IMG/VR virus record: IMGVR_UViG_3300025770_000026
Span: 1 to 51,528 of that record
Direction: 5' to 3' (one strand)
Source of the DNA: a virus
Length of the DNA: 51,528 nt
Made by a program: the position numbers and the translations under genes. The notes beneath the pieces are model-generated. The model worked only from the letters and a program-made list of their open reading frames with translations, did no database searches and was not told the DNA's origin. Below, in pieces: positions 8,219-49,337 of this stretch (position 1 is the first letter of the stretch; each line of letters begins with the position of its first letter).

Positions 8219-8715
8219 ATATCGAAGAACACAAACTTGTGAAAGAAGCAATGGCAGAAAAACTATACAAAATCCAAAACGACAAAGGTTGGGAAATCTA
8301 TTTTCGACCACTAACAGCAACAAATCGTCCTGATGAGAATAAGGATAGAGTGGAATTAATATCTTTCTATCAAGGCGACCCTTTTATGAATCCTAGAAAA
8401 CTTACTGGTGTTCGCAAAAATACTATGCAGGAAACCAATTCAAAAGATAATATAGAAGTGATGTCTGTCAAAGATGCAAGAGAGTGTTGGAACTTGTGGG
8501 TGGAACATGGCGATTATGAAGTTGCCGAAGTAGAAGACTTTCTCAAGGGTGGCAGGTCTGAATGGGCAGGTGAAAATTTTAACTATAGAAAAGAAAGTAA
8601 GACTGCCAGTTGGAGTGTACCAGAGGATGAAGATGGGAATGTAACAATGAACGGAAAACCCTGTAATATATCTGACATATCAAAAACATTAAAAAAAAGG
8701 ATGTATGCAGAATGA
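8215..8715 (+). CDS. AR-x-x-W family protein with C-terminal extension (member 5)
   Basis: 166 aa, ATGA overlap with the previous gene. The N-terminal 100 residues contain the beta-domain pattern (WEIYFRPLTA, DRVELISFYQ) and the signature KDARECWNLWVEHGDYEV. An unrelated C-terminal extension of about 65 residues follows (NYRKESKTASWSVPEDEDGN). Function unknown; located immediately upstream of the DNA ligase. Confidence 0.75.
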   Translation: MNIEEHKLVKEAMAEKLYKIQNDKGWEIYFRPLTATNRPDENKDRVELISFYQGDPFMNPRKLTGVRKNTMQETNSKDNIEVMSVKDARECWNLWVEHGDYEVAEVEDFLKGGRSEWAGENFNYRKESKTASWSVPEDEDGNVTMNGKPCNISDISKTLKKRMYAE

Positions 8716-9902
8716 ATCGGCACACGAATAAATTCCATTGCGATTTACAACATCCAACATTAAAGGAAATGAAAAAAATGAAAACAACAACACTTTTTAT
8801 ACACGAAAGACTCTACCATAAGAGTAAGACAGATGCCATTGTACAATGGGATATATGGACAGAAGGTGCAGACATCTGCACAGAGTACGGACAGATTGGT
8901 GGAAAGATGCAGACTGCAAGAAAGACTGCAACACCAAAGAATGTTGGTCGTGCAAACGCCACTACTGCGGATGAGCAAGCAATCCTTGAAGCAAAAGCAA
9001 TGCACAAGAAACGACTTGATGCCAAATACAGTCTGACGATTGAAGATGCCAAGAAGGAAGTGTTTCTTCCAATGTTGGCGGCATCTTTCGATAAACGAAA
9101 AGACAAAGTAACTTACCCAGTAGATGTCCAACCGAAACTAGATGGTGTTCGGTGTCTGGCATATTGGGATGGCGGTTCTGTGAAACTAATGAGTCGTGGT
9201 GGTAAACAGTGGAATTGTTGCCAGCATATTATTGATGAACTTGAAACCGTCTTGCCGAAGGGATGGGTACTCGATGGAGAACTCTATATTCATGGCAAGA
9301 CTTTTCAAGAGATTACTAAACTCGTCAAGAAGTATCGTCCTAATGAATCCGAAGAAGTCATGTTCCATGTGTATGATATTCCAAGAGCGGCCGGCGATGA
9401 TACCTGCCTTTGGGAAGAGAGATTTAATCTTTTAGACAAGGCATTTTATGGAATGTTGTACGAAAGTAAGATTATTTCGGTTATTACCGTGGCCACTTAT
9501 GAAGCAAGCAACGAGGACGAAGTGTACAAACTTCAATCTCAATTCCTCGAAGAAGGTTATGAAGGTGCGATTGTCCGTGAGATGGATGGCGAATATCGAT
9601 TTGGATATCGTTCTAATAAACTCCTCAAAGTGAAGAACTTTATGGACAGTGAATATAAGATTACAGATTTCACTACTGGCATTGGCAGGTTTGAAGGAAG
9701 TATCGTATGGATATGTGAAACCAAAGACGGTCAATCATTCAAAGTTGTTCCACAGGGAACAATGGAAGAACGACAGGAAACATATCAGAATGCCGAAAAG
9801 AATGTTGGCAAGTTGTTGAAGGTAAAATACTTTGAACTCACTGACGATGGTATTCCACGATTCCCTGTTGGACTTGGTATTCGCCTAACGGAGGATATGT
9901 AA
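8712..9902 (+). CDS. ATP-dependent DNA ligase with N-terminal WGR domain
   Basis: About 396 aa. Residues about 25-100 look like a WGR domain (WDIWTEGADICTEYGQIGGK), known from PARPs and some ligases. The adenylation domain follows: motif I KLDGVR (Lys acceptor), motif III LDGELYIHG, motif IV EGYEGAIVRE and motif V LLKVKNF, then a C-terminal OB-fold. It seals nicks in phage DNA during replication and repair. The ATGA overlap with the previous gene favours 8712; ATGs at 8769 and 8778 sit just before the WGR domain and are possible starts. The WGR domain may read DNA breaks. Confidence 0.9.
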   Translation: MNRHTNKFHCDLQHPTLKEMKKMKTTTLFIHERLYHKSKTDAIVQWDIWTEGADICTEYGQIGGKMQTARKTATPKNVGRANATTADEQAILEAKAMHKKRLDAKYSLTIEDAKKEVFLPMLAASFDKRKDKVTYPVDVQPKLDGVRCLAYWDGGSVKLMSRGGKQWNCCQHIIDELETVLPKGWVLDGELYIHGKTFQEITKLVKKYRPNESEEVMFHVYDIPRAAGDDTCLWEERFNLLDKAFYGMLYESKIISVITVATYEASNEDEVYKLQSQFLEEGYEGAIVREMDGEYRFGYRSNKLLKVKNFMDSEYKITDFTTGIGRFEGSIVWICETKDGQSFKVVPQGTMEERQETYQNAEKNVGKLLKVKYFELTDDGIPRFPVGLGIRLTEDM

Positions 9903-17073: not shown

Positions 17074-17211
17074 ATGATGAAACAAACAACAAAAGACAAA
17101 ACATCAGAGAGGGACGGTAACGGAACTCCTATAAATAGGGCAAAGACTTGGGGTAAGAAAACCAAGTGTCCTAAGAATTCACGAAGGAAATCTAAAGAAG
17201 AATTGCGATGA
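17074..17211 (+). CDS. Small basic protein, 45 aa
   Basis: Reads MMKQTTKDKTSERDGNGTPI and ends KCPKNSRRKSKEELR. Lysine/arginine-rich, without hydrophobic core, so probably disordered or nucleic-acid-binding. ATGA overlap with the following gene indicates translational coupling. A second TATAAATA box lies inside it. Confidence 0.6.
   Translation: MMKQTTKDKTSERDGNGTPINRAKTWGKKTKCPKNSRRKSKEELR
17130..17137 (+). promoter_or_regulatory. Late promoter TATAAATA (second)
   Basis: Lies in CCTATAAATAGG (17128-17139), the same 12-mer as at 3424-3435 on the minus strand, and 71 bases before the 17208 gene. Confidence 0.5.
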
Positions 17212-17819
17212 GTAAACAATATAAACAATTTATCAACGAGTCATCACTCTCTCGTTTATGGAAACATAACGAAGAACACAATTGTGGTGCATTGACGGCG
17301 TTCCGCAAAGGACCAGATTGTGGTGAAGGAACACCTTTCACCAATAAACAAAACGCACAACGAAACAAGTCACTTCTTGCCAAACTAAAGAGCAAGGGAT
17401 ATGGTGTTACTAAACTACACGGCAAATATCCAGAAGGTGGCAAGAGTGTTACTGAGATTAGTTACTTCGTAGTTGACTTGGTGGACAACGGAAATCTTGA
17501 AAAGGATTTGCGAGAGTTTGGTGAGATGTTTGACCAAGATTCTATTTTGTTTGTTCCAAAGGGAGCAATCAAGGGTGACAGTAAAGCATATCTGATTGGT
17601 ACAAATAAGTGTGAAAACAATTGGTTGGGATATGGAAAGAAAGAAGTGTTTGCGAAAGGTCGTATGGGATATGATTCACCGATTTATACTTCAATGGTAA
17701 ATGGTAGACCATTCATCTTTGAAGAAGTTGGTGAAACAGTAGAATCCCCACAAACAGGATTCGGAAATTGGTCAATGCATTTGGTTGCAGAAAAAGATTG
17801 GCAAGAGATTGATATTTAA
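17208..17819 (+). CDS. Conserved T4-like hypothetical protein, 203 aa
   Basis: Starts MSKQYKQFINESSLSRLWKH. Conserved-looking blocks: LLAKLKSKGYGVTKLHGKYP, FDQDSILFVPKG, NNWLGYGKKEVFAKGRMGYD and SPIYTSMVNGRPFIFEE. I recognise the pattern as a widespread protein of marine T4-like phages without known function; the Gly-Tyr-Gly and PIYTS blocks suggest an enzyme fold. It is coupled to the upstream 45-aa gene. Confidence 0.8.
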   Translation: MSKQYKQFINESSLSRLWKHNEEHNCGALTAFRKGPDCGEGTPFTNKQNAQRNKSLLAKLKSKGYGVTKLHGKYPEGGKSVTEISYFVVDLVDNGNLEKDLREFGEMFDQDSILFVPKGAIKGDSKAYLIGTNKCENNWLGYGKKEVFAKGRMGYDSPIYTSMVNGRPFIFEEVGETVESPQTGFGNWSMHLVAEKDWQEIDI

Positions 17820-19815: not shown

Positions 19816-19827
19816 TATGTATAAATA
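19816..19827. promoter_or_regulatory. Bidirectional late promoter region
   Basis: Plus strand TATAAATA (19820-19827) faces the 19859 gene. Minus strand TTATACATA (19816-19824) faces the 19775 gene; the same motif stands before two other minus-strand genes. Confidence 0.55.
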
Positions 19828-19858
19828 CCTACATAGTAACGGAGAAGAAATAATAGAT

Positions 19859-21064
19859 ATGAAAAAATTTACACAATACATTCCTGAATCAAAAAACACC
19901 CATATGGAACACATCGAAGATTCTGTATGGAATGATGGTTCTAATGGTGTAAAAACAGCATTATATTTTATGGGGTCCGTAACAGAAATGTTATCTGGAC
20001 ACGCAAAAACAAAAATAAATGTGACTGTCAAATGGGATGGCGCACCTGCTGTTTTTGCAGGTATTCATCCCGAAACCAAAAAATTCTTTGTGGCGACCAA
20101 ATCCCTATTCAATGTTACACCGAAGGTGAATTACACCAACGCAGACATTGATAAAAACCACGAAGGTGGATTGGTCACTAAATTAAAAATCGCACTAAAA
20201 CATCTTTCTAAGTTAGGAATCAGAGGAATCCTTCAGGGTGATATTATGTTCACACCTGAAGACTTATCAACGCAAAATATTGACGGTGAAAATTACCTCA
20301 CATTCCAACCAAATACGATTACATATGCAGTTCCCGCAGATTCGGATTCAGCAAAGGAAATTGAAAAAGCAAAGATAGGAGTAGTATGGCATACCAATTA
20401 TACTGGCAAGACAATTAAAGATTTAAAGGCATCGTTTAATCCGCAAGTAAGTAGACTTGCAAAAACTAGGGATGTTTGGTTTAGGGATGCCGATTTTAAA
20501 GACACATCAGGCACATCAACATTTACGAAAACCGAATCAGAAGTAATTACAAATATACTCAATGATGCTAAATCATCCTTGAAATCTTCAAGCAAATTTA
20601 TTGATGAAATTGCAGGGAAGAGTAACATTGTATCGGAACTAAAAATCTATGGTAACGCACTTATTCGTCAGGGAGGCAATAAGTCGGGTTCTGCGGAAGA
20701 TTTTATAATTTATATTGAATCTAAGATGCAGAAAGCCATAGATTCGCTCCAAACAGATAAAAGTAAACTGAATAAAACACTTGGTAAAAATGAACTACTT
20801 TCGTATTTACGAAAGAACTCTAAAAATCTGAATAGTGTTTTCGCTTTACACTCTGCTCTGGCCAAGGCGAAAACTTTCATCATACGGAAACTTGAACAAG
20901 TAAAAGACATAGGAACTTTTATCAAGACAGGAGATGGATTTAAAGTTACTGCACCAGAAGGGTTTGTCGCTGTCGATAGATTAAGCAACACGGCACTCAA
21001 ACTGGTAGACAGATTAGAATTTTCGATGCAGAATTTTACTGCGGCGAAAAATTGGGATAAATAA
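19859..21064 (+). CDS. KxDG nucleotidyltransferase/ligase-like protein (DUF6267-like)
   Basis: 401 aa. VKWDGAPAVFAGIHPETKKF (about residues 55-74) contains a KxDG motif like the lysine nucleotide acceptor of DNA/RNA ligases and capping enzymes; ILQGDIMF (about 125) and IGVVWHTNYTG (about 174) are placed like motifs III and IV. I recall a T4-like family, DUF6267, with this look. So it may form a covalent nucleotidyl-lysine intermediate; the partner (RNA, DNA or protein) is unknown. The ATG at 19859 starts after the late promoter. It is upstream of the tridomain nucleotidyltransferase/ATP-grasp fusion. Confidence 0.7.
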   Translation: MKKFTQYIPESKNTHMEHIEDSVWNDGSNGVKTALYFMGSVTEMLSGHAKTKINVTVKWDGAPAVFAGIHPETKKFFVATKSLFNVTPKVNYTNADIDKNHEGGLVTKLKIALKHLSKLGIRGILQGDIMFTPEDLSTQNIDGENYLTFQPNTITYAVPADSDSAKEIEKAKIGVVWHTNYTGKTIKDLKASFNPQVSRLAKTRDVWFRDADFKDTSGTSTFTKTESEVITNILNDAKSSLKSSSKFIDEIAGKSNIVSELKIYGNALIRQGGNKSGSAEDFIIYIESKMQKAIDSLQTDKSKLNKTLGKNELLSYLRKNSKNLNSVFALHSALAKAKTFIIRKLEQVKDIGTFIKTGDGFKVTAPEGFVAVDRLSNTALKLVDRLEFSMQNFTAAKNWDK

Positions 21065-21082
21065 TTAAAAGGAGATAGAGTT

Positions 21083-21196
21083 ATGGAAAGTATTATAGGA
21101 ACAGTTTGGTTTACGGCACTTGTATTTGTTGCAGGTGCATTTATTGGGACCCCAATGTGGAATTGGGTTAAACAAAAATTCCCTTGGAATCAATGA
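21083..21196 (+). CDS. Single-span membrane protein, 37 aa
   Basis: Starts MESIIGTVWFTALVFVAGAF and ends WNWVKQKFPWNQ. One transmembrane helix with an aromatic, basic C-terminus. AAAAGGAG precedes it. It lies between the two enzyme genes, 3 bases before the next start. Confidence 0.65.
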   Translation: MESIIGTVWFTALVFVAGAFIGTPMWNWVKQKFPWNQ

Positions 21197-21199
21197 TAG

Positions 21200-23230
21200 A
21201 TGAAAAAAGTTTTTGACTTTTTAAACGAAGCAAAAGAGAAAGCAATCGTTGTAACCTTCGGTCGTTTTCAACCACCCACAATTGGTCATAAGAAACTGAT
21301 TGATGCGGTGGTATCTATTGCTCGTAAAGAACGAGCAGAACTTCGTATCTATCCAAGTAGAACTAACGACCCAAAGAAGAATCCACTTACACCAAAAGAC
21401 AAAATTTCCTTTATGAGAAAATTGTTTCGTGGTGTCGATATTATAGATGATAGTTCTATAAGAAACCCCTTTGAAATGATGCAAAAATTAAGTGATGAGG
21501 GTTACAAGAAAGTCATTCTTGTTGTTGGTGGAGATAGAGTAGAAGAATTAGAAAAAAGCATTTCAAAATATGTTGGACCAGAAGGATATCAATTTGACCA
21601 CTTTGAAGTAAGAAGTGCTGGTCATCGTGACCCAGATGCTGATGGTGTTGAAGGTATGTCTGCTTCAAAGATGAGAGCGGCAGCAACAACAGGTGATTTT
21701 GATTCTTTTGAAATGGGTGTTGGAAATAAAACTGTTGCAAAACAGATGTATAATAAATTGAGAAAAGCAATGGGGGTAAAAGAATCACTGGAAGAGGATT
21801 GGAATCGACTTATCAAATTGGAAGAATCCAAAGATAAGAAGTTACCAACACTTATCGCAATTACAAAGTCCACCTCTTCTGATGAAATGTCGGATACGGT
21901 TCAACGAATTGCAGATACCTGTAAGAAACGAGGCGTTACATTTTTCCCTGTCCACACCAATCACGCATTCATTGTAGATAAAGATTTAGATGACAACAAA
22001 CTCGTCATCCACAACTACAATGGCGAAAACAAAAACATTACACTACAAACTGACAACACAGTTTGTTTGGTTCGTGGTGGTGCATTGGTTGATAATGCAG
22101 GAATGGGTTTGGTGAAGGTACTTCAGGAAGCAGGTATGTTCACAGTGAACGACCTAGAGTCTATGAAATTCTGCCAAAACAAAATGAGTACTGCCCTCGC
22201 ACTCGAACAAAATCAAATCTCTTCGCCAAGAACAGCCTTTGTAAACGGCGAAGATTCGATTGAGATTGCATTGGATAAAATCGGCGGCAAATTCCCCGTC
22301 ATCGTCAAGACAATAACTGGTGCTGAAGGTATCGGAGTGATGAAGATTGAGTCTCAGGAGTCCCTCAAGAGCGTCCTACAGACTCTCTGGAAGCAAGATG
22401 CAGAGGTTATCCTTCAGGAGTATATGAAGATTACTCACGATGTCCGTACCCTTGTACTAGACGGTAAAATTATTGCAGCCGTTAAACGCATCAAAGGCGG
22501 CAAAGACTTCCGAACCAACAAGGCATTAGGTAGCGATACGGCTCCATACAAATTAAGCAAAGCCGAACGAGAACTCGTAATGCAAGCCTACAAAATGTCA
22601 GGCTGTTATTTTGCTGGCGTTGACCATATCACCAATAAGGGAACTCATTATATTCTCGAAGTGAATGGTTCGCCTGGCTCTGGTGCGGCTCCTTATATGG
22701 GATATAATCCAACACGAGAATTATCCAGCGACAATCTAATCAATATCATTCTGGACCATATCTTAAACAAAGAGAATTGGAAATTTACTACAAAAGAAAT
22801 TGGCCTAGTAGAATGGATTACTATTGGCGGTGTTGGTAAATTGAAAGCAAAAATAGATACAGGAAACGGTTCAGTAAATTCTATTCATTCTGACAATGTA
22901 AAGTCAGATGGAAAAACTGTATCGTTTAGTATTCTTGGTAAAAAATATAAGAAACCCATTGTTCAAACTCAACGAATTAACATAGGTTCAGACCAATGGG
23001 AAAAACGATATATCGTCAAATTTGATGTAAAGTTTGGCGGTAAAGAATATAAGGATGTCAAATTCAATTTAAGTGACCGTGATGATAATACATATATGGT
23101 GCTTATAGGGAAACGATTCCTTGAAACACTTAATTATAGTGTGAATGTTCAAAAGACATTTACATTAGCAGAACAGATACAATTACAAGAAGCAGATGTG
23201 AACTTTGAGTTTGCAATCTTGTGGGACTAA
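21200..23230 (+). CDS. Tridomain fusion: nucleotidyltransferase, RimK-like ATP-grasp, retropepsin-like
   Basis: 676 aa. Domain 1 (about 16-190) is a cytidylyltransferase/NMNAT fold: TFGRFQPPTIGHKKL carries the HxGH-type motif (here T-I-G-H), GGDRVEE follows, and SASKMR matches the ISSTxxR loop. Domain 2 (about 215-500) is an ATP-grasp amidoligase like RimK: RGGALVDNAG, FPVIVKTITGAEGIGVMKIE, and HYILEVNGSPGSGA with metal-binding Glu-Asn. Domain 3 (about 534-660) matches the retropepsin-like RimB/ATP-dependent zinc protease family: KLKAKIDTGNGSVNSIHSDN with Asp-Thr-Gly. RimK and RimB are known partners in glutamylation of ribosomal protein S6. The three-way fusion suggests making and trimming of an amide-linked modification with a nucleotide step; the target is unknown. 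Confidence 0.85.
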   Translation: MKKVFDFLNEAKEKAIVVTFGRFQPPTIGHKKLIDAVVSIARKERAELRIYPSRTNDPKKNPLTPKDKISFMRKLFRGVDIIDDSSIRNPFEMMQKLSDEGYKKVILVVGGDRVEELEKSISKYVGPEGYQFDHFEVRSAGHRDPDADGVEGMSASKMRAAATTGDFDSFEMGVGNKTVAKQMYNKLRKAMGVKESLEEDWNRLIKLEESKDKKLPTLIAITKSTSSDEMSDTVQRIADTCKKRGVTFFPVHTNHAFIVDKDLDDNKLVIHNYNGENKNITLQTDNTVCLVRGGALVDNAGMGLVKVLQEAGMFTVNDLESMKFCQNKMSTALALEQNQISSPRTAFVNGEDSIEIALDKIGGKFPVIVKTITGAEGIGVMKIESQESLKSVLQTLWKQDAEVILQEYMKITHDVRTLVLDGKIIAAVKRIKGGKDFRTNKALGSDTAPYKLSKAERELVMQAYKMSGCYFAGVDHITNKGTHYILEVNGSPGSGAAPYMGYNPTRELSSDNLINIILDHILNKENWKFTTKEIGLVEWITIGGVGKLKAKIDTGNGSVNSIHSDNVKSDGKTVSFSILGKKYKKPIVQTQRINIGSDQWEKRYIVKFDVKFGGKEYKDVKFNLSDRDDNTYMVLIGKRFLETLNYSVNVQKTFTLAEQIQLQEADVNFEFAILWD

Positions 23231-23930: not shown

Positions 23931-24476
23931 ATGGGACTAGGATTAGTAGACACATACTTAGCATATAAGTTTATAAAATTATTAGCAACTCCGTGGAAGA
24001 AAACGGAGGCCTATAAACTTGGTATCATTGATGCAAAAGGGAAACGAATCAAGACTGAAGAAGCAGATGATGCGGCACGCAGAGCAGGTTCAAAGTACAC
24101 CAACATCCACAAAGTTATCTTTAATATAAAACGACTTGTTAGTAAAGTTCCAGGCGGTAAAACCAGACTCGGTGGCGCGGCAGCGGCGTTGTGGTTGTTG
24201 AAAGAGGAAGCAAAGAAAATGGGTGTTGAAAATGCCAATATTCTTGAGGATGTTTTCTTGAATTACCTAGAAGACAATGACATAAAAACAGATGGAATTA
24301 ATGAATCGTTTAGTAAAATTGATTTATCTATTCCAAGAGGCACATACATTCTAAATGGTAGACAGATTACATTGAAAGAGAATTTAGAAATATTCGATAC
24401 TGTTATTGGTATATCACTTTTTCGTTTGGGCGAAGAAGTATTTTCTCAAGAAGAAATTGAAAGGGCAGAACAATGA
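23931..24476 (+). CDS. Conserved T4-like phage protein, 181 aa
   Basis: Begins MGLGLVDTYLAYKFIKLLAT, then TPWKKTEAYKLGIIDAKGKR and KVPGGKTRLGGAAAALWLLK. I recognise this as the usual neighbour of the preceding gene in T4-like phages; it is often present near virion genes. The last third carries NESFSKIDLSIPRGTYI. Function unknown. It starts one base after the previous stop and overlaps the next by ATGA. Confidence 0.8.
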   Translation: MGLGLVDTYLAYKFIKLLATPWKKTEAYKLGIIDAKGKRIKTEEADDAARRAGSKYTNIHKVIFNIKRLVSKVPGGKTRLGGAAAALWLLKEEAKKMGVENANILEDVFLNYLEDNDIKTDGINESFSKIDLSIPRGTYILNGRQITLKENLEIFDTVIGISLFRLGEEVFSQEEIERAEQ

Positions 24477-25267
24477 AAAATTTCAATGATTTTAAAAACG
24501 AATTGCCAATTATAGAAACCGTTCTTTTCGGCAAACAAATTCAAATGGGCGACAGAAGAGGCAGAGTCGTTAAAGTAATCTCACACGGAGATATTAGTAG
24601 ATATGATACAGTATATTCTGTAAAATTTCACGATGGAACTCAAGTGCAAATGCACGATTCAATGATTAGACCATTTATTGTTGAAGAACACGGTGCGGGC
24701 GAAGAAGGCACAGATGAATTAGATGATACCTATCGTGAAGAAACTCCAGGCGAAGAAGTACAAGAGGCAAGAAAAGATGTATATGCAATCGTAGATAAAA
24801 AGGGCAAAGTTGTTGCCGCAAATCTTACAAAGCAAAACGCACACAAAGAAATCTCAAGACATCGAGATGGTACAATCGTTCTTGACCCAGATGCAAAGGT
24901 TGGAGATGTTCTAAAGACTTTTGCATCAGAATCTGTTGAAGAATCTGCACCAATGAACTCAGTGGGTGGTGGAATGTCACCCCATATGGGCGGTGAAGGT
25001 AATGTGCAAGGTACTGATGCTATCCTAATGAAAAAGAAACGAAAGAAGTTCGCAGGCGCAGAAGTATTTGAATTGACAAGTGATGACTATCATAATTGTA
25101 TGCACGGCAGACAACGATATGAAAGATGGAACAAGAGAATGAATATGGAAAATATTGACAATCAGGAAATTCGTTCTTATGCTCATAAGAATCCTGGCAA
25201 ACCTATTGTTGTTCAAGATATGACAACAGGTATAATGTCATATTTAATTCATGGAGATAGTAAATAA
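24473..25267 (+). CDS. Hypothetical protein with KOW-like N-terminus, 264 aa
   Basis: Starts MKNFNDFKNELPIIETVLFG. Residues about 20-60 (MGDRRGRVVKVISHGDISRY) look like a KOW/SH3-type barrel. The acidic middle (GEEGTDELDDTYREETPGEE) and the C-terminal globular part (VFELTSDDYHNCMHGRQRYE) have no recognised family. The linker composition resembles T4-like virion assembly proteins. Confidence 0.75.
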   Translation: MKNFNDFKNELPIIETVLFGKQIQMGDRRGRVVKVISHGDISRYDTVYSVKFHDGTQVQMHDSMIRPFIVEEHGAGEEGTDELDDTYREETPGEEVQEARKDVYAIVDKKGKVVAANLTKQNAHKEISRHRDGTIVLDPDAKVGDVLKTFASESVEESAPMNSVGGGMSPHMGGEGNVQGTDAILMKKKRKKFAGAEVFELTSDDYHNCMHGRQRYERWNKRMNMENIDNQEIRSYAHKNPGKPIVVQDMTTGIMSYLIHGDSK

Positions 25268-25291: not shown

Positions 25292-26221
25292 ATGAAAAAT
25301 TTAATAATGATTGTAGCACTTACATCAACTTTATTCGGATGTGAAGCATTTGAACAATGGGAAGTGAATAATCCAGAGAACACATCATCAACCGTTGTCG
25401 ATTCTCTAAGAGAACAAAAAGAACAAACAGAAGAAATTGGAAATGCCACTAATGAAATTGGTGGTGGTTTGCAAACTATTGATGGTCACGCAGATGCAAT
25501 ACTAAATGAAATTGCAGTTATTCCCAATGACCGAAATTATAACATTGACCCAACTGTAGATTCTATCGAAGATTCCGCAGAAGCAATCAAAGAATCTGTT
25601 GATGAAGCACAAAAAGAAAACATCAGAATTGAAGAAGCATTAGAAGATTTGGAATCTGCCAATGCAAGAGTATCCGCCGCAGTGGGACAGATAGAAGACC
25701 TTGAAGATTTAGTCAAAGAGTACGAACAATCTGATAGGGAAATTCGCAAAGAGGCGATTGAGAACCTACACGAAAACATCACTCTATTCTTTACTTTAGG
25801 ATTCGGTATGCTTGTTGCAGGGGCATTCATTACATTCTGGGTGAACGGACGGTTAGGTGCTGTCCTGCTTGCTGTGGGTGTCCTCACAGTTGGATTCTCG
25901 ACTGCATCACAATACTATATGGAAGAGATTGCACAGGTAGGATTGATTGTATTGATTGGTGGGTTTATCATCACGATGGGTGTTATTGCGTATATGCTAT
26001 TAACCGGCAAGAACAATGAAAAGGCACTAGTAGAGATTGTCGAACTTATTGAAGAGATGAAAGACCATCTTAATGACGAAGAACGAAAAGAAATATTTGG
26101 TCGTGATGGATTCGCCAGCAGATTACAATCTCCTATGACTAAGAAGATTGTTGCTCAGGTGAAAATCAAAAATGGATTTAAGTATCTTGGACAAACGAAG
26201 AAGAATACCACCGATTCATAA
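25292..26221 (+). CDS. Coiled-coil lipoprotein with transmembrane helices
   Basis: 309 aa. Signal peptide with lipobox TLFGC (lipid Cys17), then about 140 residues of coiled coil (IEEALEDLESANARVSAAVG, EDLEDLVKEYEQSDREIRKE), three hydrophobic segments (about 165-183, 188-203 and 213-235), and a charged C-terminus. A protein with a lipid anchor at one end and inner-membrane helices at the other could bridge the periplasm, as spanins do, or modify injection. Its end overlaps the convergent GIY-YIG gene by 44 bases. Confidence 0.75.
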   Translation: MKNLIMIVALTSTLFGCEAFEQWEVNNPENTSSTVVDSLREQKEQTEEIGNATNEIGGGLQTIDGHADAILNEIAVIPNDRNYNIDPTVDSIEDSAEAIKESVDEAQKENIRIEEALEDLESANARVSAAVGQIEDLEDLVKEYEQSDREIRKEAIENLHENITLFFTLGFGMLVAGAFITFWVNGRLGAVLLAVGVLTVGFSTASQYYMEEIAQVGLIVLIGGFIITMGVIAYMLLTGKNNEKALVEIVELIEEMKDHLNDEERKEIFGRDGFASRLQSPMTKKIVAQVKIKNGFKYLGQTKKNTTDS

Positions 26222-26705: not shown

Positions 26706-26845
26706 CAATGATTACCTAATATTTCGATAAATTTTACTAATAATATACCAATGAAGAAACCACTAACACCAACACAGGCACCTATGGGTGTCATTAATAA
26801 ATTCAATCTATTCTTTAACCAATCCTTCAATTTCAATTTCCTCAT
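26705..26845 (-). CDS. Membrane miniprotein, 46 aa
   Basis: MRKLKLKDWLKNRLNLLMTP followed by one transmembrane helix (IGACVGVSGFFIGILLVKFI). A basic amphipathic N-terminus precedes it. The start lies in the end of the protease gene (38-base overlap) and it couples to the next miniprotein by TGATG. The pair resembles small holin or anti-holin proteins in size only. Confidence 0.55.
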   Translation of the reverse strand: MRKLKLKDWLKNRLNLLMTPIGACVGVSGFFIGILLVKFIEILGNH

Positions 26846-27602
26846 TTATCCAATTCAAATACTTTGCAATGTTCACTGCCGAACATTCTGATACGATTTC
26901 TTCTCCGCCAAATACTCTAATCATTTTAAAGTAACTAATGATACCAACAACATATTTTCTACCTTGAAACTCTGCGAACACTCCACCACCCGAATCACCA
27001 AACCAAATTGGAATTGGTCGTGGTAAGAACTTCATAGAGTTGGGTTCAGATGATACTGTCCCAAAGTATCGAAATACACTTAGTCTACTAAACTTCTTAT
27101 AACCGTGCGAGTAACCAACTGTTGTTATATCTTGATATCGCTCCATCCAATCTACGCACCCAATCGTTGCAGGTTCGTAAATAGAATCACATTCGAGGAT
27201 TATCAATCCAATATCGTTTTTTACCCGGCCAGATGTGTCGCTGTAATGGGGGTGAAGAATCATATCTTTTACCATTATCTCCTCTTCACCTATAATTATA
27301 GAGTAGATATTGTCCTCATCTATGCAATGACCTGCCGTTAGAACGACATTTGGTCGGATAAGTATACCACTGCCCAATAAAGAACCATCGTGCGTATGTA
27401 AACTACACACTGATGGATACGGGTCATTTTCTATTGTGATTGGTTGAAACCAGATGTCAAGTGGATTGACTTCAATTGGTTCTTCGATTACTAAATCGGA
27501 AAAATAATGTTGAGGTAGAGATGTTGCGGTCTGTGAGTTTATACAACCCACATTCAAAATACATAATATAGTTGCTAAGGCATATTTAATTTTTCTGAAC
27601 AT
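26808..27602 (-). CDS. Trypsin-like serine protease lipoprotein (S1 family)
   Basis: 264 aa. Lipoprotein signal with lipobox LNVGC (Cys20). The catalytic triad is complete: His92 in VVLTAGHCID, Asp130 in KNDIGLIIL and Ser204 in FGDSGGGVF, in the usual chymotrypsin order, with an S1-like end YVVGIISYF. It should be anchored to the inner or outer membrane and act in the periplasm or at the cell surface. Possible roles are removing surface receptors or host envelope proteins, or defence against other phages. A TTATACATATA promoter-like motif ends a few bases before the ATG. Confidence 0.9.
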   Translation of the reverse strand: MFRKIKYALATILCILNVGCINSQTATSLPQHYFSDLVIEEPIEVNPLDIWFQPITIENDPYPSVCSLHTHDGSLLGSGILIRPNVVLTAGHCIDEDNIYSIIIGEEEIMVKDMILHPHYSDTSGRVKNDIGLIILECDSIYEPATIGCVDWMERYQDITTVGYSHGYKKFSRLSVFRYFGTVSSEPNSMKFLPRPIPIWFGDSGGGVFAEFQGRKYVVGIISYFKMIRVFGGEEIVSECSAVNIAKYLNWINEEIEIEGLVKE

Positions 27603-42351: not shown

Positions 42352-43680
42352 CTATGCCTTTTGCTTTTTCTTGGTTCGTTTCTTTTTATCTTTTTGTGCT
42401 TTTGCTTTATTTTTATTTTGAACAGCAACCTTAACTGCTCGTTCTTCTTTCTCTTTGGCGAGTCTTTCAGAACGGACTTGTTCAATCTCAGCATTTATTT
42501 TTTCGTTCTTTTTAACCTGCTCTTGTTGCATCTGTTGAATCTCTTGCATCTTTATTTGATATTGTTCAAGGTTATTCATAATGCGTTGTCGTTCACCTTC
42601 AGGAAATTTATTTTCCTTGAGTAGTTGCATACAAGCATTATATCCATCTTCAAATTGTCCCGCATAGAACGCACAAGAACCAATCTCGTCAAGAACTTGC
42701 CAATCCCAAACTTCATTCGCAAGGAATAAAATATCTTGATGTGGGTAAGGAATCGACTGTGCTTGTTTGGCAAAAAGATAACCGAGTCTTGGGTGTCCAG
42801 ACAAACGATAGATTCGTGCAATTTGATATAGTGGTTCTGCACGAACTGGTCGATAGTTCCAAGCACTAAGGAAATATTGCATTGTCTTTTCCCAAGGTTC
42901 TTGTGTGATACTACTACAAATAGCAGTACGGAACAATGAGTAAAATACTTCTTCTTCCCAACCACCTGCTTCTGCTCGTTTCATATACCATTCTTTTGCC
43001 AAATCAAATTGCTTTGAATCGAAATATGATTGAGCAAGATAGAAAAGATATCGTGTGTTTTCTGGTTCGTAGTTTTGGTCGTCTTCATTTGTCAAGCAAC
43101 TAAGAAATACTTCTGCATCTTTCTTGTATTTGTCTATGGGGTCAATACCAACATTTCTTGCACCGAGTGTTCGTGCTTCGATGTGATATCCCTCTGTTCC
43201 AATTCTTCCTTGTCGGAGAGAACCGTCTGCTTGTTTATCTGGACACTCAGCAAATTCGTGAAGGACTCCTGTATACACCCAATTAGAATCTGTCTTGAAG
43301 ATTTGATTTCTCCACCAAGTGAAGTCACCTCGCTTGATTTTTAATGAATATGAATCAAGAAGTAAATCTTCTGGAAAGTTGAATGTGCCTTGAAGTGTAT
43401 CATCTGCATCAATCACCCAAGCATAGTCTGCTTTACCATCGCAATTACGCAATGATTGTGTTCGTGACTTACCAAATCCATCCCATTCATGGTCGTGGAT
43501 TTCGCCAGGAATTCCTTTTTCCTCAAAGAAATCTGTGATGATTTTCTTTGTATTGTCGGTAGAACCTGTATCGGTAATATCGTATCTGTCGATTTGTGTG
43601 TGCATAGATTCCAAGCATTCAAGAATGATATGCTCCTCGTCTTTCACAATCATACACAATGTTACTGTTGGTTTGCTCAT
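42352..43680 (-). CDS. Family 2 glycosyltransferase with TPR-like and coiled-coil region
   Basis: 442 aa. GT2 core PTVTLCMIVKDEEHIILECL, DITDTGSTDNTKKI and ADYAWVIDADDTLQG (DxDD metal site). The middle has TPR-like helices (NTRYLFYLAQSYFDSKQFDL, AKEWYMKRAEAGGW). The C-terminal 80 residues are a Gln/Lys-rich coiled coil (EQYQIKMQEIQQMQQEQVKK). Such TPR-GT2 proteins make glycosides on carbohydrates or peptides. First gene of the cassette side nearest the dUTPase. Confidence 0.88.
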   Translation of the reverse strand: MSKPTVTLCMIVKDEEHIILECLESMHTQIDRYDITDTGSTDNTKKIITDFFEEKGIPGEIHDHEWDGFGKSRTQSLRNCDGKADYAWVIDADDTLQGTFNFPEDLLLDSYSLKIKRGDFTWWRNQIFKTDSNWVYTGVLHEFAECPDKQADGSLRQGRIGTEGYHIEARTLGARNVGIDPIDKYKKDAEVFLSCLTNEDDQNYEPENTRYLFYLAQSYFDSKQFDLAKEWYMKRAEAGGWEEEVFYSLFRTAICSSITQEPWEKTMQYFLSAWNYRPVRAEPLYQIARIYRLSGHPRLGYLFAKQAQSIPYPHQDILFLANEVWDWQVLDEIGSCAFYAGQFEDGYNACMQLLKENKFPEGERQRIMNNLEQYQIKMQEIQQMQQEQVKKNEKINAEIEQVRSERLAKEKEERAVKVAVQNKNKAKAQKDKKKRTKKKQKA

Positions 43681-44624
43681 AATTTAATTTCCTTTTGTTG
43701 GGATTGAATCCAATCTTCTAGTTTCACCTTTGGAGTCCAGTTTAAAACACTCTTTGCTTTATTTATACAAGATAAAGATTCTTGTAATTCCCCACTTCTC
43801 TCTTCTATGTTTATATGATAATCAGAAATCATTGTTGCAATTTCTTTTATAGTGTGGTTTTTTCCAGTTCCTATATTGATAACTTCTCCATAATCAACAC
43901 GCTCATATCTATTGTTTTCTATTTGAAACAATTCATCTAACTGCACCGTTGATGCTAGTATATTTGCTTCAACCACATCTTTCACATTTACAAAATCTCT
44001 TTTTTGTTTTCCGTCACCAACAATGGTTAATGGTGATTCTATTAAATTTTGCTCTATAAACTTGCCTACCACTGGAGCATATTGTCCACGAATTGGTTGT
44101 CGTTCACCATATACATTAAAATATCTAAACATTATAGTTTCTAATCCATATAATTCATAGTACATTGTACATAATTTTTCCCCCGATACCTTCGATACTG
44201 AATATGGGTTTAGACAGTTTTCAATTTGTGTTTCTTTATTTGGTATAGAATTTTTTGTTCCGTATGCAGAAGCAGTGGAAGAATACACAAACCTTCTTAC
44301 ATTATTCTCTCTGGATGTTTGTAGTACATTGCAAGTACCAAATGTATTTGTTTTTACTGCTTGTGTTGGATTGATAATGGTTGGTTGAATTCTTGATTCT
44401 GCCGCCAGATGAAAAACAGTATCCACATCTTCAAATAAAGGAGCAATAATATCATAATCACATATATCATATTTGTAGTATTTTGCGGAATTGTTATGGT
44501 AGAATTGGTCGTGTGATTCTGCTGATTCATTATCAATTATTATAACTTCATTTCCATCATCCACCAACCTATCCACTATATGTGAACCGATGAATCCTGC
44601 TCCGCCTGTTACGATATATTTCAT
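43677..44624 (-). CDS. NAD-dependent sugar epimerase/dehydratase
   Basis: 315 aa extended SDR. NAD motif VTGGAGFIGSHIVDRL, FHLAAESRIQPTI, catalytic STASAYG and Y-x-x-x-K in NPYSVSKVSGEKL, then FRYFNVYGERQPI. Of the UDP-galactose/UDP-GlcNAc 4-epimerase type. It would supply a nucleotide sugar to the glycosyltransferases in the cassette. ATGA overlap with the GT2 gene. Confidence 0.92.
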   Translation of the reverse strand: MKYIVTGGAGFIGSHIVDRLVDDGNEVIIIDNESAESHDQFYHNNSAKYYKYDICDYDIIAPLFEDVDTVFHLAAESRIQPTIINPTQAVKTNTFGTCNVLQTSRENNVRRFVYSSTASAYGTKNSIPNKETQIENCLNPYSVSKVSGEKLCTMYYELYGLETIMFRYFNVYGERQPIRGQYAPVVGKFIEQNLIESPLTIVGDGKQKRDFVNVKDVVEANILASTVQLDELFQIENNRYERVDYGEVINIGTGKNHTIKEIATMISDYHINIEERSGELQESLSCINKAKSVLNWTPKVKLEDWIQSQQKEIKL

Positions 44625-45257
44625 TCAAATTTTCCTAAACGCTACTTGTTGGTGATATAAACCAATACTATCTATTGTGCCAGTTTTGTGGTCTATTTCT
44701 TCTAGTTTGTTCAACAACCACTCGTTAAATTTAATTCTATCATTTGTGTGAGAACAATTATTTAAGTGCATTCCAGGCCAACCTTGAGATTCTGCTGTCA
44801 AATCACGATAGGTGGTGGAAGTATCTTCTATAATGTAATGCCCTTTTTCTGTAACACTGGGGAATAAATATTCAAAGGATGATATCATATGTTCCACTAA
44901 GTGACTACCATCATCAATGACGGCATTTAACTTACCACCACATTCTTCTATGACAGCATCCAATGTATCGGGGTCATCTTGTGAGCCTATAAATATTTTG
45001 ATTCTATCAGTTTCAAATACTTTCGCGGTAGGATTTATATCCAGCCCTAAAATTTTTGCATTTGGAAAATATTCTTCCCAAACTCTAAGAGAACATCCAC
45101 CATAAACACCTATTTCTAGAAAGTATTCTACTTCCTCTCTTATGGGCGAGAACAAGTATTCATATCTGTGCATATAGTTTTTATTAGCAAATGTATGACA
45201 ATCTTTTGTTTTGTCTGTTCCGTATTTACCCGCAAGTTCTTGTAATTTATTCATCAT
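44625..45257 (-). CDS. Class I methyltransferase (CmcI/Methyltransf_24-like)
   Basis: 210 aa. YFLEIGVYGGCSLRVWEEYF, PNAKILGLDIN, then AVIDDGSHLVEHMISSFEYL with the metal-binding DDGSH typical of cephalosporin hydroxylase/rhamnosyl O-methyltransferase relatives. It probably methylates a sugar or lipid head group. It is directly next to the epimerase gene. Confidence 0.85.
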   Translation of the reverse strand: MMNKLQELAGKYGTDKTKDCHTFANKNYMHRYEYLFSPIREEVEYFLEIGVYGGCSLRVWEEYFPNAKILGLDINPTAKVFETDRIKIFIGSQDDPDTLDAVIEECGGKLNAVIDDGSHLVEHMISSFEYLFPSVTEKGHYIIEDTSTTYRDLTAESQGWPGMHLNNCSHTNDRIKFNEWLLNKLEEIDHKTGTIDSIGLYHQQVAFRKI

Positions 45258-45260
45258 TGT

Positions 45261-45857
45261 TTATCCTATCGATACCAGTGGGAGAGAATGATATGCATCA
45301 AAATATTCTCCATATTTTTGTTTTAATCTATCTTGTATTTCTTGTGGTTCGTTCTGCCAATCACTACTTCTTTTTCTAAATTTAAACTCTAAATTTTTTG
45401 GTAAGTCCCAATAATCTATAAATGAAGATACACCATTTTCACTCAGTTCTTCATATCGCATCATCACCAAATCATAATTTCTTTCATTGTAGGTTGCCCA
45501 TTTATCATAATGCTCTCTTAAAAAGAAAGGGTCATACTCATCCTTTAGAAAATTTTCAATTATTCTATTTTCAGGATTTTTAAAATAGTCAACATCTCCA
45601 CCGATATTGGTAGTGTGTGGAAACAAAAAACCACCATTACAATTAAACTCCACTTTATCTCTTCTAAAATACGACAATATTGTGTCATATGGATTTGCAA
45701 ATAAATAAACAACTCTGGAATCTTTGGGTGGTGTGTTTGGGTTGTTGGAATGTGTGTTCCAAGGTATTTTATATCCATAATTAAAATACTCTCCCATACA
45801 ATATTTTAGTGCATATGTTCCACAAGAACCTTGCGTTATTAAAAAATTATTCATCAT
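45261..45857 (-). CDS. Sulfotransferase-like protein
   Basis: 198 aa. LITQGSCGTYALKYCM near the N-terminus is like a phosphosulfate-binding loop; VVYLFANPYDTILSYFRRDK has the R/NP.D...S.f.R pattern of the PAPS 3'-phosphate site; NYDLVMMRYEELSE is also typical. It would transfer sulfate to a sugar or lipid. The identity is an inference from motifs. Confidence 0.65.
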   Translation of the reverse strand: MMNNFLITQGSCGTYALKYCMGEYFNYGYKIPWNTHSNNPNTPPKDSRVVYLFANPYDTILSYFRRDKVEFNCNGGFLFPHTTNIGGDVDYFKNPENRIIENFLKDEYDPFFLREHYDKWATYNERNYDLVMMRYEELSENGVSSFIDYWDLPKNLEFKFRKRSSDWQNEPQEIQDRLKQKYGEYFDAYHSLPLVSIG

Positions 45858-46539
45858 TTATTTTCCTTATGTGTTCTGCTAGTGTACCATAGTCATCTAA
45901 ATTTTGATAGTCAAAAATCCAATGCAAAACAATATATTTTGTTTTTTTTGTTAGGTTGTTGATAACTGTTTTTATGTCTGCTGATTCTTTGTTTGATATG
46001 GCAATCATATTATTTAGATTCCCATAATTGAATCTATTGTGGTTTTGTTGTTCGTTACATATAGAAGTGTCGTGTATTGTACTTACTTTTGTTTCTTCGT
46101 TTAGAAAATCCAAAAGATTTTGTGTTATGGCATTAAATGGGGGTATGAAATGATTTTCATCATACCGCAATATGTCTTTCATATATTTGTTGCAGAGGTT
46201 ATATCTAATTGACAATTCTTTTCTATTCCAATTTACAAATTCTCCACCATTGTTCCAAGTTGATGTTATTGGTATGTTTAGCGATTGTAATATTTTCCAA
46301 GAAGCAAAAGAATGGTCAAACCCGTGCATAACTATTCTTCCGTGTTTTATATGTTCATTTAAAAATTCGATATCTGATTCGTCTATTAGTAGCGGAGTCA
46401 CGCCCAAGATGTAATCTATTTTATGTTTCTCAAACGGAAGAATCCATTGTAATGCCTTTTCTTTATAATCATCAAAATACAAATGACCGTGAAACTCTTT
46501 TGGGGACAGGTGAGGGAAATCATCAACTCTAACTAACAT
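45847..46539 (-). CDS. Polysaccharide-deacetylase-like protein
   Basis: 230 aa from the ATG at 46539, which has AGGA 8 bases upstream; a longer frame to 46641 overlaps the previous gene. LVRVDDFPHL (Asp-Asp) and IVMHGFDHSFASW (His-x-x-x-His-type zinc site), then FIPPFNAI fit the NodB/DUF2334 group. It may remove acetyl groups from a surface sugar made by the cassette. Confidence 0.7.
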   Translation of the reverse strand: MLVRVDDFPHLSPKEFHGHLYFDDYKEKALQWILPFEKHKIDYILGVTPLLIDESDIEFLNEHIKHGRIVMHGFDHSFASWKILQSLNIPITSTWNNGGEFVNWNRKELSIRYNLCNKYMKDILRYDENHFIPPFNAITQNLLDFLNEETKVSTIHDTSICNEQQNHNRFNYGNLNNMIAISNKESADIKTVINNLTKKTKYIVLHWIFDYQNLDDYGTLAEHIRKINDE

Positions 46540-47086
46540 TTCCATAATCCTTTTTGTATAATTTACTAACCATATTGTCTTCTCTTGTATGGTCGTTATG
46601 AGTCGAAATGCAAACAAACCCATTTTCCAATAATAAATCATTTTCTATTGGATTTTTGTATAATATGAGAATATCTCTTGGTTTATTAATACGAGATTTG
46701 TTTATGTTGTCCAAAACACTCTTCATTGTTTTGTTACCAAATGGATTGTACATATAAACGAAATCAATATTTTCATAATCGTTAAAATCATTAGCATCTA
46801 AGTTGTAGATTTTACAATTTTTTAATTCCTTTAGATTGTCCAAACAAACCTCATAACATTTTTTATTTCTCTCTACCCCAATAGCATTATTGAATATATC
46901 AGATGCCAAAAATATGACTCCACCCTTACCGCATCCAATATCAAGAAAATTCATTTTGTTCGTGTTGGTGATGTTTGAAACGATATCCAAAAAATGATTA
47001 TTTGCAGAATTGGCATACCAAGTACCGTCACCTGAAGCACAATTCACCCATTCCAAATCAAGATTGTCTAATTTTTTATTTTCCAT
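46529..47086 (-). CDS. SAM-dependent methyltransferase, 185 aa
   Basis: MNFLDIGCGKGGVIFLASDI is motif I, with NAIGVERNKKCYEVC and YMYNPFGN (NPFG, similar to NPPF) as motif IV. Substrate unknown. ATG at 47086 (MENKKLD) overlaps the previous gene's end. Confidence 0.8.
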   Translation of the reverse strand: MENKKLDNLDLEWVNCASGDGTWYANSANNHFLDIVSNITNTNKMNFLDIGCGKGGVIFLASDIFNNAIGVERNKKCYEVCLDNLKELKNCKIYNLDANDFNDYENIDFVYMYNPFGNKTMKSVLDNINKSRINKPRDILILYKNPIENDLLLENGFVCISTHNDHTREDNMVSKLYKKDYGNVS

Positions 47087-47879
47087 AAACCCCAATACAA
47101 TCTAAAAAAGATTTTTGCTTATAGCAACCCCTATCTTTTGATATACCACAATCAAAAGACATTTTTCCATTTTCACAACACCATTTAATGATTTCACAAC
47201 AAAGAATAACTCCATACGAATACTTTGTTCTTTTTGCAGTAGTGTTTAATAAGGAAATGCTATTATTATCAACTAATATGGGAGCCGTTGCAACAACTTC
47301 ATCTTCGTGATACAGATATGCCATTTTTTTCCATTCTTCTGGAGAACTAGACCAACCAACGCCTGGGTGCTGTAAGTATGTGGCCGCACCCGCGTGCCAG
47401 TCTGCCTTTTGGTTTCTTTCGATTTCACTATAATTCTTCAAATTAAAATCAAAAATCATTAATCTAATATTTTCATTATTTTTTAGTTTGTTATAACTAG
47501 AAATTGTGGGGAAATGATTCTGCTTCTTCGCTCTTTTTGTTCTTATATTTAAATAATCATCGAAATTATTCGTTATAGTTCTCCAAAAATAGAAAGTATC
47601 TTCATTGGGGGTGATGTCGATTTCTTGAAGACTATAGTGCAACGGAATTGCGTTCCCATCCAGTGTCCAAATTGGTAGAGGACTCCAAGGTCCCAATAAG
47701 TTTTTATAGTCTAAATAAACAATTTCATTTATTTTATCATAGAGAAGTCCACACTTCTCATAAAATATTTCAATATTGTAATTAAAGTGCCAACTATTTT
47801 GTATAGTCTTCAGTCCTTTATCCTTTATGAGAGATATGGCATCTTTTGTTGAAATACTTAAAGCAGTCATTTTATTCAT
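47076..47879 (-). CDS. GNAT-like acetyltransferase (FemAB/BioF2 group)
   Basis: 267 aa. The C-terminal half reads KKMAYLYHEDEVVATAPILV, LLNTTAKRTKYSYGVILCCE and FDCGISKDRGCYKQKSFLDC; the D.G.s.d...yKqkfl pattern fits the C-terminal GNAT domain of the BioF2-like/FemAB group. N-terminal half unassigned. It probably acylates a sugar amine, downstream of an aminotransferase or deacetylase step. Confidence 0.6.
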   Translation of the reverse strand: MNKMTALSISTKDAISLIKDKGLKTIQNSWHFNYNIEIFYEKCGLLYDKINEIVYLDYKNLLGPWSPLPIWTLDGNAIPLHYSLQEIDITPNEDTFYFWRTITNNFDDYLNIRTKRAKKQNHFPTISSYNKLKNNENIRLMIFDFNLKNYSEIERNQKADWHAGAATYLQHPGVGWSSSPEEWKKMAYLYHEDEVVATAPILVDNNSISLLNTTAKRTKYSYGVILCCEIIKWCCENGKMSFDCGISKDRGCYKQKSFLDCIGVYGK

Positions 47880-48702
47880 TTCTTAGTAGTTCTTCTACTC
47901 TATTATTATATGTGTTATTCAAAGAAAGTTCAAAACCTTTGTTTGCAATTTCTTCAACATTATTAGTTTTGATGAACTGAATTTTTTCTTCTAGTTCATT
48001 TTGATTTTTGTACATTAGGCAATTTTTACCATCAACAAAACCAAGTTCTTCATACTGATAGTTGTGGTTCGTAAGAAGAAGTGTACCACAACCTATAGTT
48101 TCAAACGACCTATAGTTTATATCGTTTCCAATATTAAGATTAAATTGACATTTATAAGAATTGACTGCTTCTACCATAGCATCACCGATTACGAATATGT
48201 CCAGATGTAGTCCGTGATTCTGTTCTAACCATTCCAGAATTGGTTTTCTGTTTACATAGTTTCCACAGAAACCCAATTCGTATTTTGTTTCGATGTCCAA
48301 TGGTTTTATTAATGAATCATCGAATGCATTCGGAAACCAACGATGGTATTTTTGTTTTACAAAGTCTTTCGTGGAATGTAAGAGAATATCATAATTGCCT
48401 ATTCTAAAAGTATTTTCGTAAATTGCCTCTCCCCTGCAATGTGCATCGATACTCCACAAAAACTTCTTTGGATTCTTTACACCAGACAAATCAGGCACCC
48501 ATCCAGTGCTATCATAATTTTCTAAATTAATAATCCAATCATAAGATTCCCAATCAGGAACAACATCAAAGTTGTCGTGTCCAAATCCCCACACATCACA
48601 GTCATTTCCAAACTTTTCAAACGACCTTTGCAACGAAAAACATTCTCTGTAGTTTCTATTCTCTTCGTGTCTTCCATTTTCTTGGATTAATAATATTCTC
48701 AA
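47872..48702 (-). CDS. CgeB/Glyco_trans_1_2-like glycosyltransferase, TTG start
   Basis: 276 aa. GT-B fold: N-terminal LRILLIQENGRHEENRNYRE and C-terminal NIGNDINYRSFETIGCGTLL with YEELGFVDGKNCLMYKN, like YkvP/CgeB glycosyltransferases. The TTG at 48702 overlaps the preceding stop as TTGA and has GGAG 7 bases upstream; an ATG at 48729 would overlap that gene by 31 bases. Confidence 0.8.
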   Translation of the reverse strand: MRILLIQENGRHEENRNYRECFSLQRSFEKFGNDCDVWGFGHDNFDVVPDWESYDWIINLENYDSTGWVPDLSGVKNPKKFLWSIDAHCRGEAIYENTFRIGNYDILLHSTKDFVKQKYHRWFPNAFDDSLIKPLDIETKYELGFCGNYVNRKPILEWLEQNHGLHLDIFVIGDAMVEAVNSYKCQFNLNIGNDINYRSFETIGCGTLLLTNHNYQYEELGFVDGKNCLMYKNQNELEEKIQFIKTNNVEEIANKGFELSLNNTYNNRVEELLRNE

Positions 48703-49337
48703 ACCATATCTCCGTGCTTTGTTTCGCACTCACTGTTATCCTCATTAAATGCCTGACCTACAAACTCTCTTGGTTTTCTTTTTGTTGGAAATGGTTTCTT
48801 CTCAAAAAATTCATCGTGTACAAAAGTGTTGTTTTGTATTTTTGGATATATCATCTCCCTTAAGAAGTTCTGGTCTACTTGCCAAAAATCTCCTTTGGTG
48901 TATTTTTCCATCCATTCACTTATACCTTTTAATATTCCGTTTCTGCATCCCCACATCCCACCAAGAATTTGTGTTCCGTGGTATGGATGGTCACGCATAA
49001 TATGAAAATCTTTATCTGATTCCAACCATTCAGATACAGCATCCACTTCTCGTTGTGTGATTCGTGAATCTGTATCCCTCGATAACATAACATCATCACT
49101 ATCTGCTGAAAGGAATCGCCAAAACATCCCTGTCCAATCTCCATCTTCATCCATCAATATAACTTCTGTATTTGGAGTTTGCTTTAATTCTTTAATAATT
49201 TCAGAAGGAACACTTTGTCCACAATAAAATCTTCCAATCCATTCTGGATATAATTCACAAATTCCTTGTGCATTCTTTATTGCACCTACTGTATATTTTG
49301 GGTCTTCTCCCCATAAACTATATGCCACTACTTTCAT
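48699..49337 (-). CDS. Glycosyltransferase-like protein with DxD motif
   Basis: 212 aa. MKVVAYSLWGEDPKYTVGAI, FWRFLSADSDDVMLSRDTDS (RDTDSRI as a DxD metal site), then HIMRDHPYHGTQILGGMWGC. Related proteins occur in marine phages and are GT-A-like, linked to surface sugars. ATGA overlap with the preceding gene. Confidence 0.75.
   Translation of the reverse strand: MKVVAYSLWGEDPKYTVGAIKNAQGICELYPEWIGRFYCGQSVPSEIIKELKQTPNTEVILMDEDGDWTGMFWRFLSADSDDVMLSRDTDSRITQREVDAVSEWLESDKDFHIMRDHPYHGTQILGGMWGCRNGILKGISEWMEKYTKGDFWQVDQNFLREMIYPKIQNNTFVHDEFFEKKPFPTKRKPREFVGQAFNEDNSECETKHGDMV

Follow-up and report, generated by a model that had tools for sequence, protein, structure and literature searches.

This analysis concerns a 51,528-nucleotide stretch of viral DNA (IMG/VR record IMGVR_UViG_3300025770_000026, positions 1 to 51,528, here called the window) and two neighboring genes within it (Table 1). 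Gene A encodes a ligase-like protein of the DUF6267 family, and gene B encodes an enzyme that combines a nucleotidyltransferase (NTase), a RimK-like ATP-grasp ligase and a RimB-like retropepsin in one chain. Both products begin with a ten-residue leader of the type that directs internal proteins into the T4 head, and they are probably T4-type internal head proteins, i.e., effector enzymes that would be packaged in the capsid, cut by the prohead protease gp21 and ejected into the host. Because of the leaders, the phage probably carries both enzymes inside its particle and injects them with its DNA. Taken separately, packaging in the virion is very probable judging from the sequences, and ejection followed by action in the host, for which T4 provides the analogy, is fairly likely.

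T4 packs the internal proteins IPI, IPII and IPIII and the protein Alt into its head by means of such propeptides, and these proteins are later ejected (PMC9026906). For IPIII, ten residues suffice, with positions 4 and 7 serving for targeting and positions 8 and 10 for processing by gp21 (PMC9026906). The same register is found in IPIII (MKTYQEFIAE/A, the slash marking the cut), gene A (MKKFTQYIPE/S) and gene B (MKKVFDFLNE/A), and the key residues are like those of IPII and IPIII. Position 19859, where the leader of gene A begins, is the second in-frame ATG of an open reading frame (ORF) extending from 19817 to 21064; it is likely to be the true start, since the leaders of the DUF6267 homologues begin at the same point.

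In an alignment of 58 diverse DUF6267 homologues, leader position 4 is F in 45 proteins, position 7 is Y or F in 48, position 8 is L or I in 56 and position 10 is E in 56, and positions 2, 3, 5, 6 and 9 are variable; the constrained positions are the four mapped by T4 mutagenesis. The pattern F..[FYL][ILVM].[EQ] fits 65 of 83 distinct DUF6267 leaders; shuffled leaders give 2.1 fits (maximum 8), and 18-residue segments taken from the body of the proteins give 0.8. RimK-RimB homologues were sampled as the best 80 of at least 566 matching stretches in a viral contig collection (tblastn-based pass), and their leaders were counted on 77 intact ORFs; 68 of these carry a leader of this type, in 25 distinct forms such as MQVSKFKEFISE and MKPVKFNDFITE. 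The leader type occurs on several unrelated families, which include DUF6267, an S-adenosylmethionine (SAM)-lyase-family protein, a P-loop kinase and HAD-like proteins. The leaders of both gene A and gene B are low-confidence regions of the respective AlphaFold2 models.

The machinery that would process these leaders is encoded by the same phage. The 134,816-base viral contig IMGVR_UViG_3300025676_000004 (the 134.8-kb contig) has 99.96% identity with the window across the full window length, and it contains the genes for a prohead protease of the gp21 type and for the major head protein gp23, the latter with a fitting gp21-type cleavage site (LME/T); the window is part of a T4-like phage genome of marine origin. 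A T4-type late promoter box, TATAAATA, precedes gene A and the SAM-lyase-family gene, and it is also found on the 134.8-kb contig 47 bp before gp23 and 97 bp before another leader-bearing gene. The box occurs 10 times in the window, compared to 3.2 expected (0/100 shuffles), and it lies at most 150 bp upstream of 23 of 76 DUF6267 starts, compared to a background of 2.6%. Gene A is therefore predicted, from the promoter sequence only, to be expressed late.

Further support comes from a sister of the NTase domain in Synechococcus phage S-SM1. This orthologue, T4-GC190, starts with the leader MKKFSAFLNE/A, and a near-identical leader (MKKF.AFL.E) is present on the same NTase gene in five other cyanophages. 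Peptides of T4-GC190 were detected by mass spectrometry in purified S-SM1 virions (PMC3037559). The RimK-RimB homologue of Yersinia phage YerA41 has also been labeled structural, and this label counts little as proof of a virion location because the same proteome held many cytoplasmic enzymes (polymerases, helicases).

The initial annotation had described gene B as a 676-residue fusion of an NTase with RimK-like and RimB-like domains; the ORF stands as described, and the domains are borne out by profiles, fold match and motifs. Residues 10-202 match the phrog_395 cytidyltransferase (E 2.8e-55), in addition to a CTP_transf_like match just above the cut-off, residues 326-495 match the RimK profile (E 4e-33), and residues 535-655 match PF05618, the RimB family (E 2e-9). 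The AlphaFold2 model consists of three confident domains with a mean pLDDT (predicted local distance difference test) of 86, and the best PDB fold match of the middle domain is RimK, the S6 glutamate ligase (E 5e-21). The T(I)GH and SASKMR motifs, which correspond to the HxGH-type and ISSTxxR-type motifs of the nucleotidyltransferase superfamily, the ATP-grasp residues that bind ATP and Mg, and the catalytic DTG motif are all conserved, so that no domain shows the loss of catalytic residues that would have spoken against the annotation. The NMNAT/NadR matches of the NTase domain are weak (best E 0.7-1.3), and a sequence search for its substrate returned no significant solved relative. The full tridomain protein has been seen only in IMG/VR contigs, about a dozen of them, most at 70-100% identity; because these contigs are independent, a chance fusion or an assembly artefact is ruled out as its origin.

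Gene A belongs to Pfam DUF6267 (E 1.8e-115), which comprises at least 465 phage records, mostly from cyanophages and mostly annotated as hypothetical. The ligase-type KWDG motif noted earlier in this gene is confirmed, as K58, D60 and G61 are invariant in the 58 homologues, and so are the QGD, EG-V and KL-DR motifs. Motifs I (KxDG), III, IV (EG) and V of the covalent nucleotidyltransferases, i.e., DNA and RNA ligases and mRNA capping enzymes, are thus present in order; gene A differs from these enzymes in that some 120 helical residues are inserted between its motifs III and IV. The AlphaFold2 model (pLDDT 79.5) has DNA ligases, RNA ligases and capping enzymes as its top PDB fold matches, ligases ranking first, at a nonsignificant E of 0.06 and worse. 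Sequence profiles gave no real match between DUF6267 and solved structures, and the profile comparison with the window's own DNA ligase was negative. Judging from the model and the motifs, gene A likely belongs to the covalent nucleotidyltransferase superfamily, short of proof because of the level of the fold matches, and it looks like an end-joining or capping-type enzyme.

One tentative explanation for gene A, compatible with its being an internal head protein, is that DUF6267 is delivered along with a kinase and a phosphatase as a kit for nucleic-acid repair, one that mends host-made breaks in tRNA or in the incoming DNA. T4 Pnkp and Rnl1 are the analogues of such a kit. The invariance of all the covalent-ligase motifs and the ligase and capping-enzyme folds, weak as these matches are, agree with it. 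In HTVC008M, a zeta-toxin/AAA_33-type kinase sits between DUF6267 and the NTase, and capsid-targeting leaders occur on kinase-like and HAD-phosphatase-like proteins in the DUF6267 loci of other phages (L054:3818-4534, L064:1244-1828, L069:2823-3506, L075:6518-7324 and, more weakly, L024:7742-8404). The leader-bearing P-loop kinases and HAD-like phosphatases in these neighborhoods make a repair role for gene A plausible. However, neither sequence nor fold searches gave DUF6267 a significant ligase match, no gene next to gene A in the window was recognized as encoding a kinase or a phosphatase, and the phage already has a separate ATP-dependent DNA ligase gene at 8712-9902.

Several observations count against packaging and delivery. 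When single genomes are scanned with the leader pattern, about 1.5 hits are expected by chance from shuffling, whereas S-SM1 has 1 and the 134.8-kb contig has 5. Scanning a genome with a strict regular expression is therefore insufficient alone as proof of packaging, and the case rests on conservation across families. The leader is missing from DUF6267 of S-PM2, S-SM1, S-PRM1, S-CAM9 and S-RSM4 and from 9 of the 77 RimK-RimB ORFs, so packaging is not universal in these families. To these points are added the weak fold matches of gene A and the host-protein target of the RimK-like domain, which is a leading guess. We know of no virion proteome for this phage or for any phage with the tridomain protein.

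The shortness of the motif, its shuffle-like frequency in single genomes and its absence from some family members would fit ordinary cytoplasmic late enzymes, in which F..[FY]L.E has nothing to do with packaging and instead serves as an interaction motif or forms an N-terminal helix. This alternative is unlikely: conservation falls on exactly the four positions set by T4 mutagenesis, the leader is carried by several unrelated protein families, late promoters precede leader-bearing genes, and a leader-bearing S-SM1 protein was found in virions (PMC3037559).

Slightly less probable still is that the enzymes are packaged and act in the prohead on the scaffold or capsid proteins of the phage itself, for example by putting acidic residues on and taking them off while the head matures, and so do not serve as effectors in the host. 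The packaging evidence serves this alternative equally well, and RimB-type enzymes cut glutamate runs (PMC11957791). In addition, the neighboring gene 24473-25267 contains the stretch SPHMGGEGNV, which resembles SPHMGGAGNV in the N-arm of this phage's gp23, just past its presumed cleavage site. However, the T4 internal proteins and Alt, which have such propeptides, are ejected (PMC9026906), the unrelated families that share the leader type have no obvious head role, and the families are patchy among T4-like phages. Virion protein was nearest to the present reading among the targets proposed in the initial annotation, although in another sense, as it is the enzymes themselves that carry virion-packaging leaders.

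The distribution of the domains bears on whether they form one system. The expected co-occurrence of the KxDG and NTase genes holds, as an NTase gene lies downstream of DUF6267 in 32 of the 46 loci whose downstream flank measures 2.5 kb or more, and the two are fused in PHROG 455 and in phage S-PM2, where they form one 591-residue protein. In the older S-PM2 records (AJ630128 / NC_006820) the fusion is split by a frame change, which may be a sequencing error because the intact protein A0A0M6VVW4 exists. NTase and DUF6267 occur without RimK in hundreds of phages, and in the sampled loci RimK-RimB neighbors DUF6267 solely in cases where the NTase is fused to it. Conversely, an ATP-grasp-retropepsin pair that lacks the NTase is found far more often than the full tridomain protein, with the NTase absent from 67 of the 80 sampled homologues; Pelagibacter phage Mosig (EXVC030M), like YerA41, encodes this pair. 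Mosig and the Methylophilales phage Melnitz, which has DUF6267, NTase and RimK, are cultured phages whose homologues bear capsid-targeting leaders. Regarding cellular relatives, one genome scan with the phage patterns gave weak ATP-grasp matches (21-31% identity), none spanning the retropepsin part, and this type of search favors close relatives, so cellular ones are not excluded.

Given this modularity, the self-contained pathway first suggested, in which a group is activated by the NTase, ligated by the ATP-grasp domain and taken off again by the retropepsin, and in which the KxDG protein is a partner, is weakly supported and improbable, even with all the activities in one operon, three of them in one chain, active sites intact, and DUF6267 and NTase linked by adjacency and natural fusion. 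Moreover, by the established chemistry of ATP-grasp ligases, RimK uses ATP to turn its substrate into an acyl phosphate and needs no nucleotidyl carrier.

If genes A and B are indeed internal head proteins, both would be made late and drawn by their leaders into the prohead core, where gp21 would cut after residue 10; the enzymes would then stay in the mature head until they are ejected together with the DNA. In the new host, the RimK-like domain of gene B would consume ATP in attaching glutamate, or an amino acid like it, to one of the host's proteins; the leading guess is S6 of the ribosome or some other factor of translation or transcription. Ligation of an amino acid, plausibly glutamate, to a protein is the most likely activity of this domain; such ligation to a host protein is about as likely as not. 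The fused retropepsin may trim the added residues or stimulate the ligase, as does bacterial RimB with RimK (PMC11957791). Gene A would pass through a lysyl-nucleotide intermediate, its acceptor being the ends of nucleic acids or something comparable, and the product of the NTase of gene B would be linked to a nucleotide and might resemble NAD. Gene B is best regarded as delivering three activities together, not as carrying out successive steps in one pathway.

Table 1. Positions of genes A and B, their domains and motifs, and related features of the window
Feature	Position	Strand	Basis
Gene A, DUF6267 ligase-like covalent nucleotidyltransferase (likely), 401 residues	19859..21064	+	Pfam profile, motifs, model
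Putative capsid-targeting leader of gene A (MKKFTQYIPE; predicted cut after E10)	19859..19888	+	T4 comparison, alignment
Motif I of gene A, KWDG, predicted nucleotidyl-lysine	20030..20041	+	invariant in 58/58 homologues
Motifs IV (EGFV) and V (KLVDR) of gene A	20957..21013	+	DUF6267 alignment
Small ORF, 37 residues, one predicted membrane helix	21083..21196	+	between gene A and gene B
Gene B, tridomain enzyme, 676 residues	21200..23230	+	profiles, AlphaFold2 model, fold search
Putative capsid-targeting leader of gene B (MKKVFDFLNE; predicted cut after E10)	21200..21229	+	T4 comparison, homologue leaders
HIGH-type NTase domain; TIGH 21278-21289, GMSASKMR 21653-21676	21227..21805	+	profiles, alignment
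RimK-like ATP-grasp domain	21842..22768	+	profile, alignment, fold match
RimB-like retropepsin domain; DTG 22856-22864	22802..23164	+	PF05618 profile, alignment
Late promoter box of T4 type, TATAAATA, 31 bp upstream of the gene A start	19820..19827	+	box scan
Late promoter box TATAAATA, 70 bp before SAM-lyase-family gene	17130..17137	+	box scan
SAM-lyase-family gene (PF23780, E 2.3e-11), leader MSKQYKQFINE/S	17208..17819	+	profile, leader
Downstream gene, leader MKNFNDFKNE like a capsid-targeting sequence; relatives MKKFDEFITE, MKQFNEYIAE	24473..25267	+	leader comparison

Other genes of this phage carry similar leaders. From its sequence, the SAM-lyase-family gene is probably the same class of cargo, and a virion-delivered SAM lyase, as predicted here, would suit anti-restriction at DNA entry. 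Two leader-bearing genes lie outside the window, at L036:12545-14035 (MKSFKQYIIE/G), which has no family match, and L036:14043-14570 (MKSFKEYITE/V), a weak match to DUF6934; together they correspond to 132545-134570 of the 134.8-kb contig. The motif GAGxxGTxxLxxxYxxxTPGQ/E recurs in unrelated proteins, namely the product of 24473-25267, the C-terminal tails of NTase proteins (L025, L098, L211, L213-L215) and proteins of L024, L049-L055 and L089, and is possibly a second assembly or sorting motif. Elsewhere in the window, 26808-27602 encodes an apparent secreted trypsin-like serine protease, unusual for a phage, in which the motifs TAGHC and GDSGGG accompany a signal of the lipoprotein type, and 25292-26221 encodes a protein with a lipoprotein-type signal, a coiled-coil stretch and hydrophobic segments. 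A minus-strand block (42352-51500) includes glycosyltransferase-like and nucleotide-sugar epimerase genes.

Some parts of this system have known counterparts. T4 and this phage have in common the leaders, the gp21 and gp23 genes and the late promoter sequence; in contrast to the T4 internal proteins and Alt, to which no similarity was noted, the cargo here would be a large multidomain enzyme and a ligase-like protein, ejected by analogy with T4. A RimK fold and a RimB-family retropepsin with DTG also share one chain in a bacterial RimBK hybrid (PMC11957791), in which RimB comes first, whereas in the phage protein RimK precedes RimB; gene B moreover adds the N-terminal NTase and the capsid-targeting leader. 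The cyanophage cytidyltransferase T4-GC190 and T4-GC71 (DUF6267) are orthologous to the NTase domain and to gene A, and are likewise encoded by adjacent genes. However, the RimK-RimB fusion is absent in the cyanophages examined, and the leader there is on the NTase or on neither protein, not on DUF6267. Finally, the polyvalent proteins of phages and plasmids combine several enzymatic domains in one polypeptide and are thought to be packaged and injected (PMC5512222). Gene B differs from these in having three domains behind a T4-type leader, and a term search of PMC5512222 for RimK, retropepsin and cyanophage found no mention of them. Among open-licence papers, no report was found of the tridomain protein or its packaging, of capsid-targeting sequences on DUF6267 or RimK-RimB or in marine phages, or of a virion-delivered RimK. 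Internal head proteins, RimK, RimB and the bacterial RimB-RimK hybrid are thus already known; what would be new is the enzymatic cargo among T4-type ejected head proteins.

A bolder proposal, which we regard as possible and clearly more speculative than packaging, is that the virions of marine T4-like phages bring reversible glutamylation of proteins into the cell: only minutes after the DNA enters, the packaged RimK-RimB would modify the ribosome or some other protein of the host, and it would be shipped with DUF6267, SAM lyase and other enzymes marked by capsid-targeting sequences. If the leaders do serve as signals for capsid targeting, many widespread marine phage proteins that lack an explanation would turn out to be cargo of the virion that acts at infection, and a short sequence rule would predict which proteins a T4-like phage injects. 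Protein modification of the RimK/RimB type, known from bacterial ribosomes, would then enter the phage takeover of the host.

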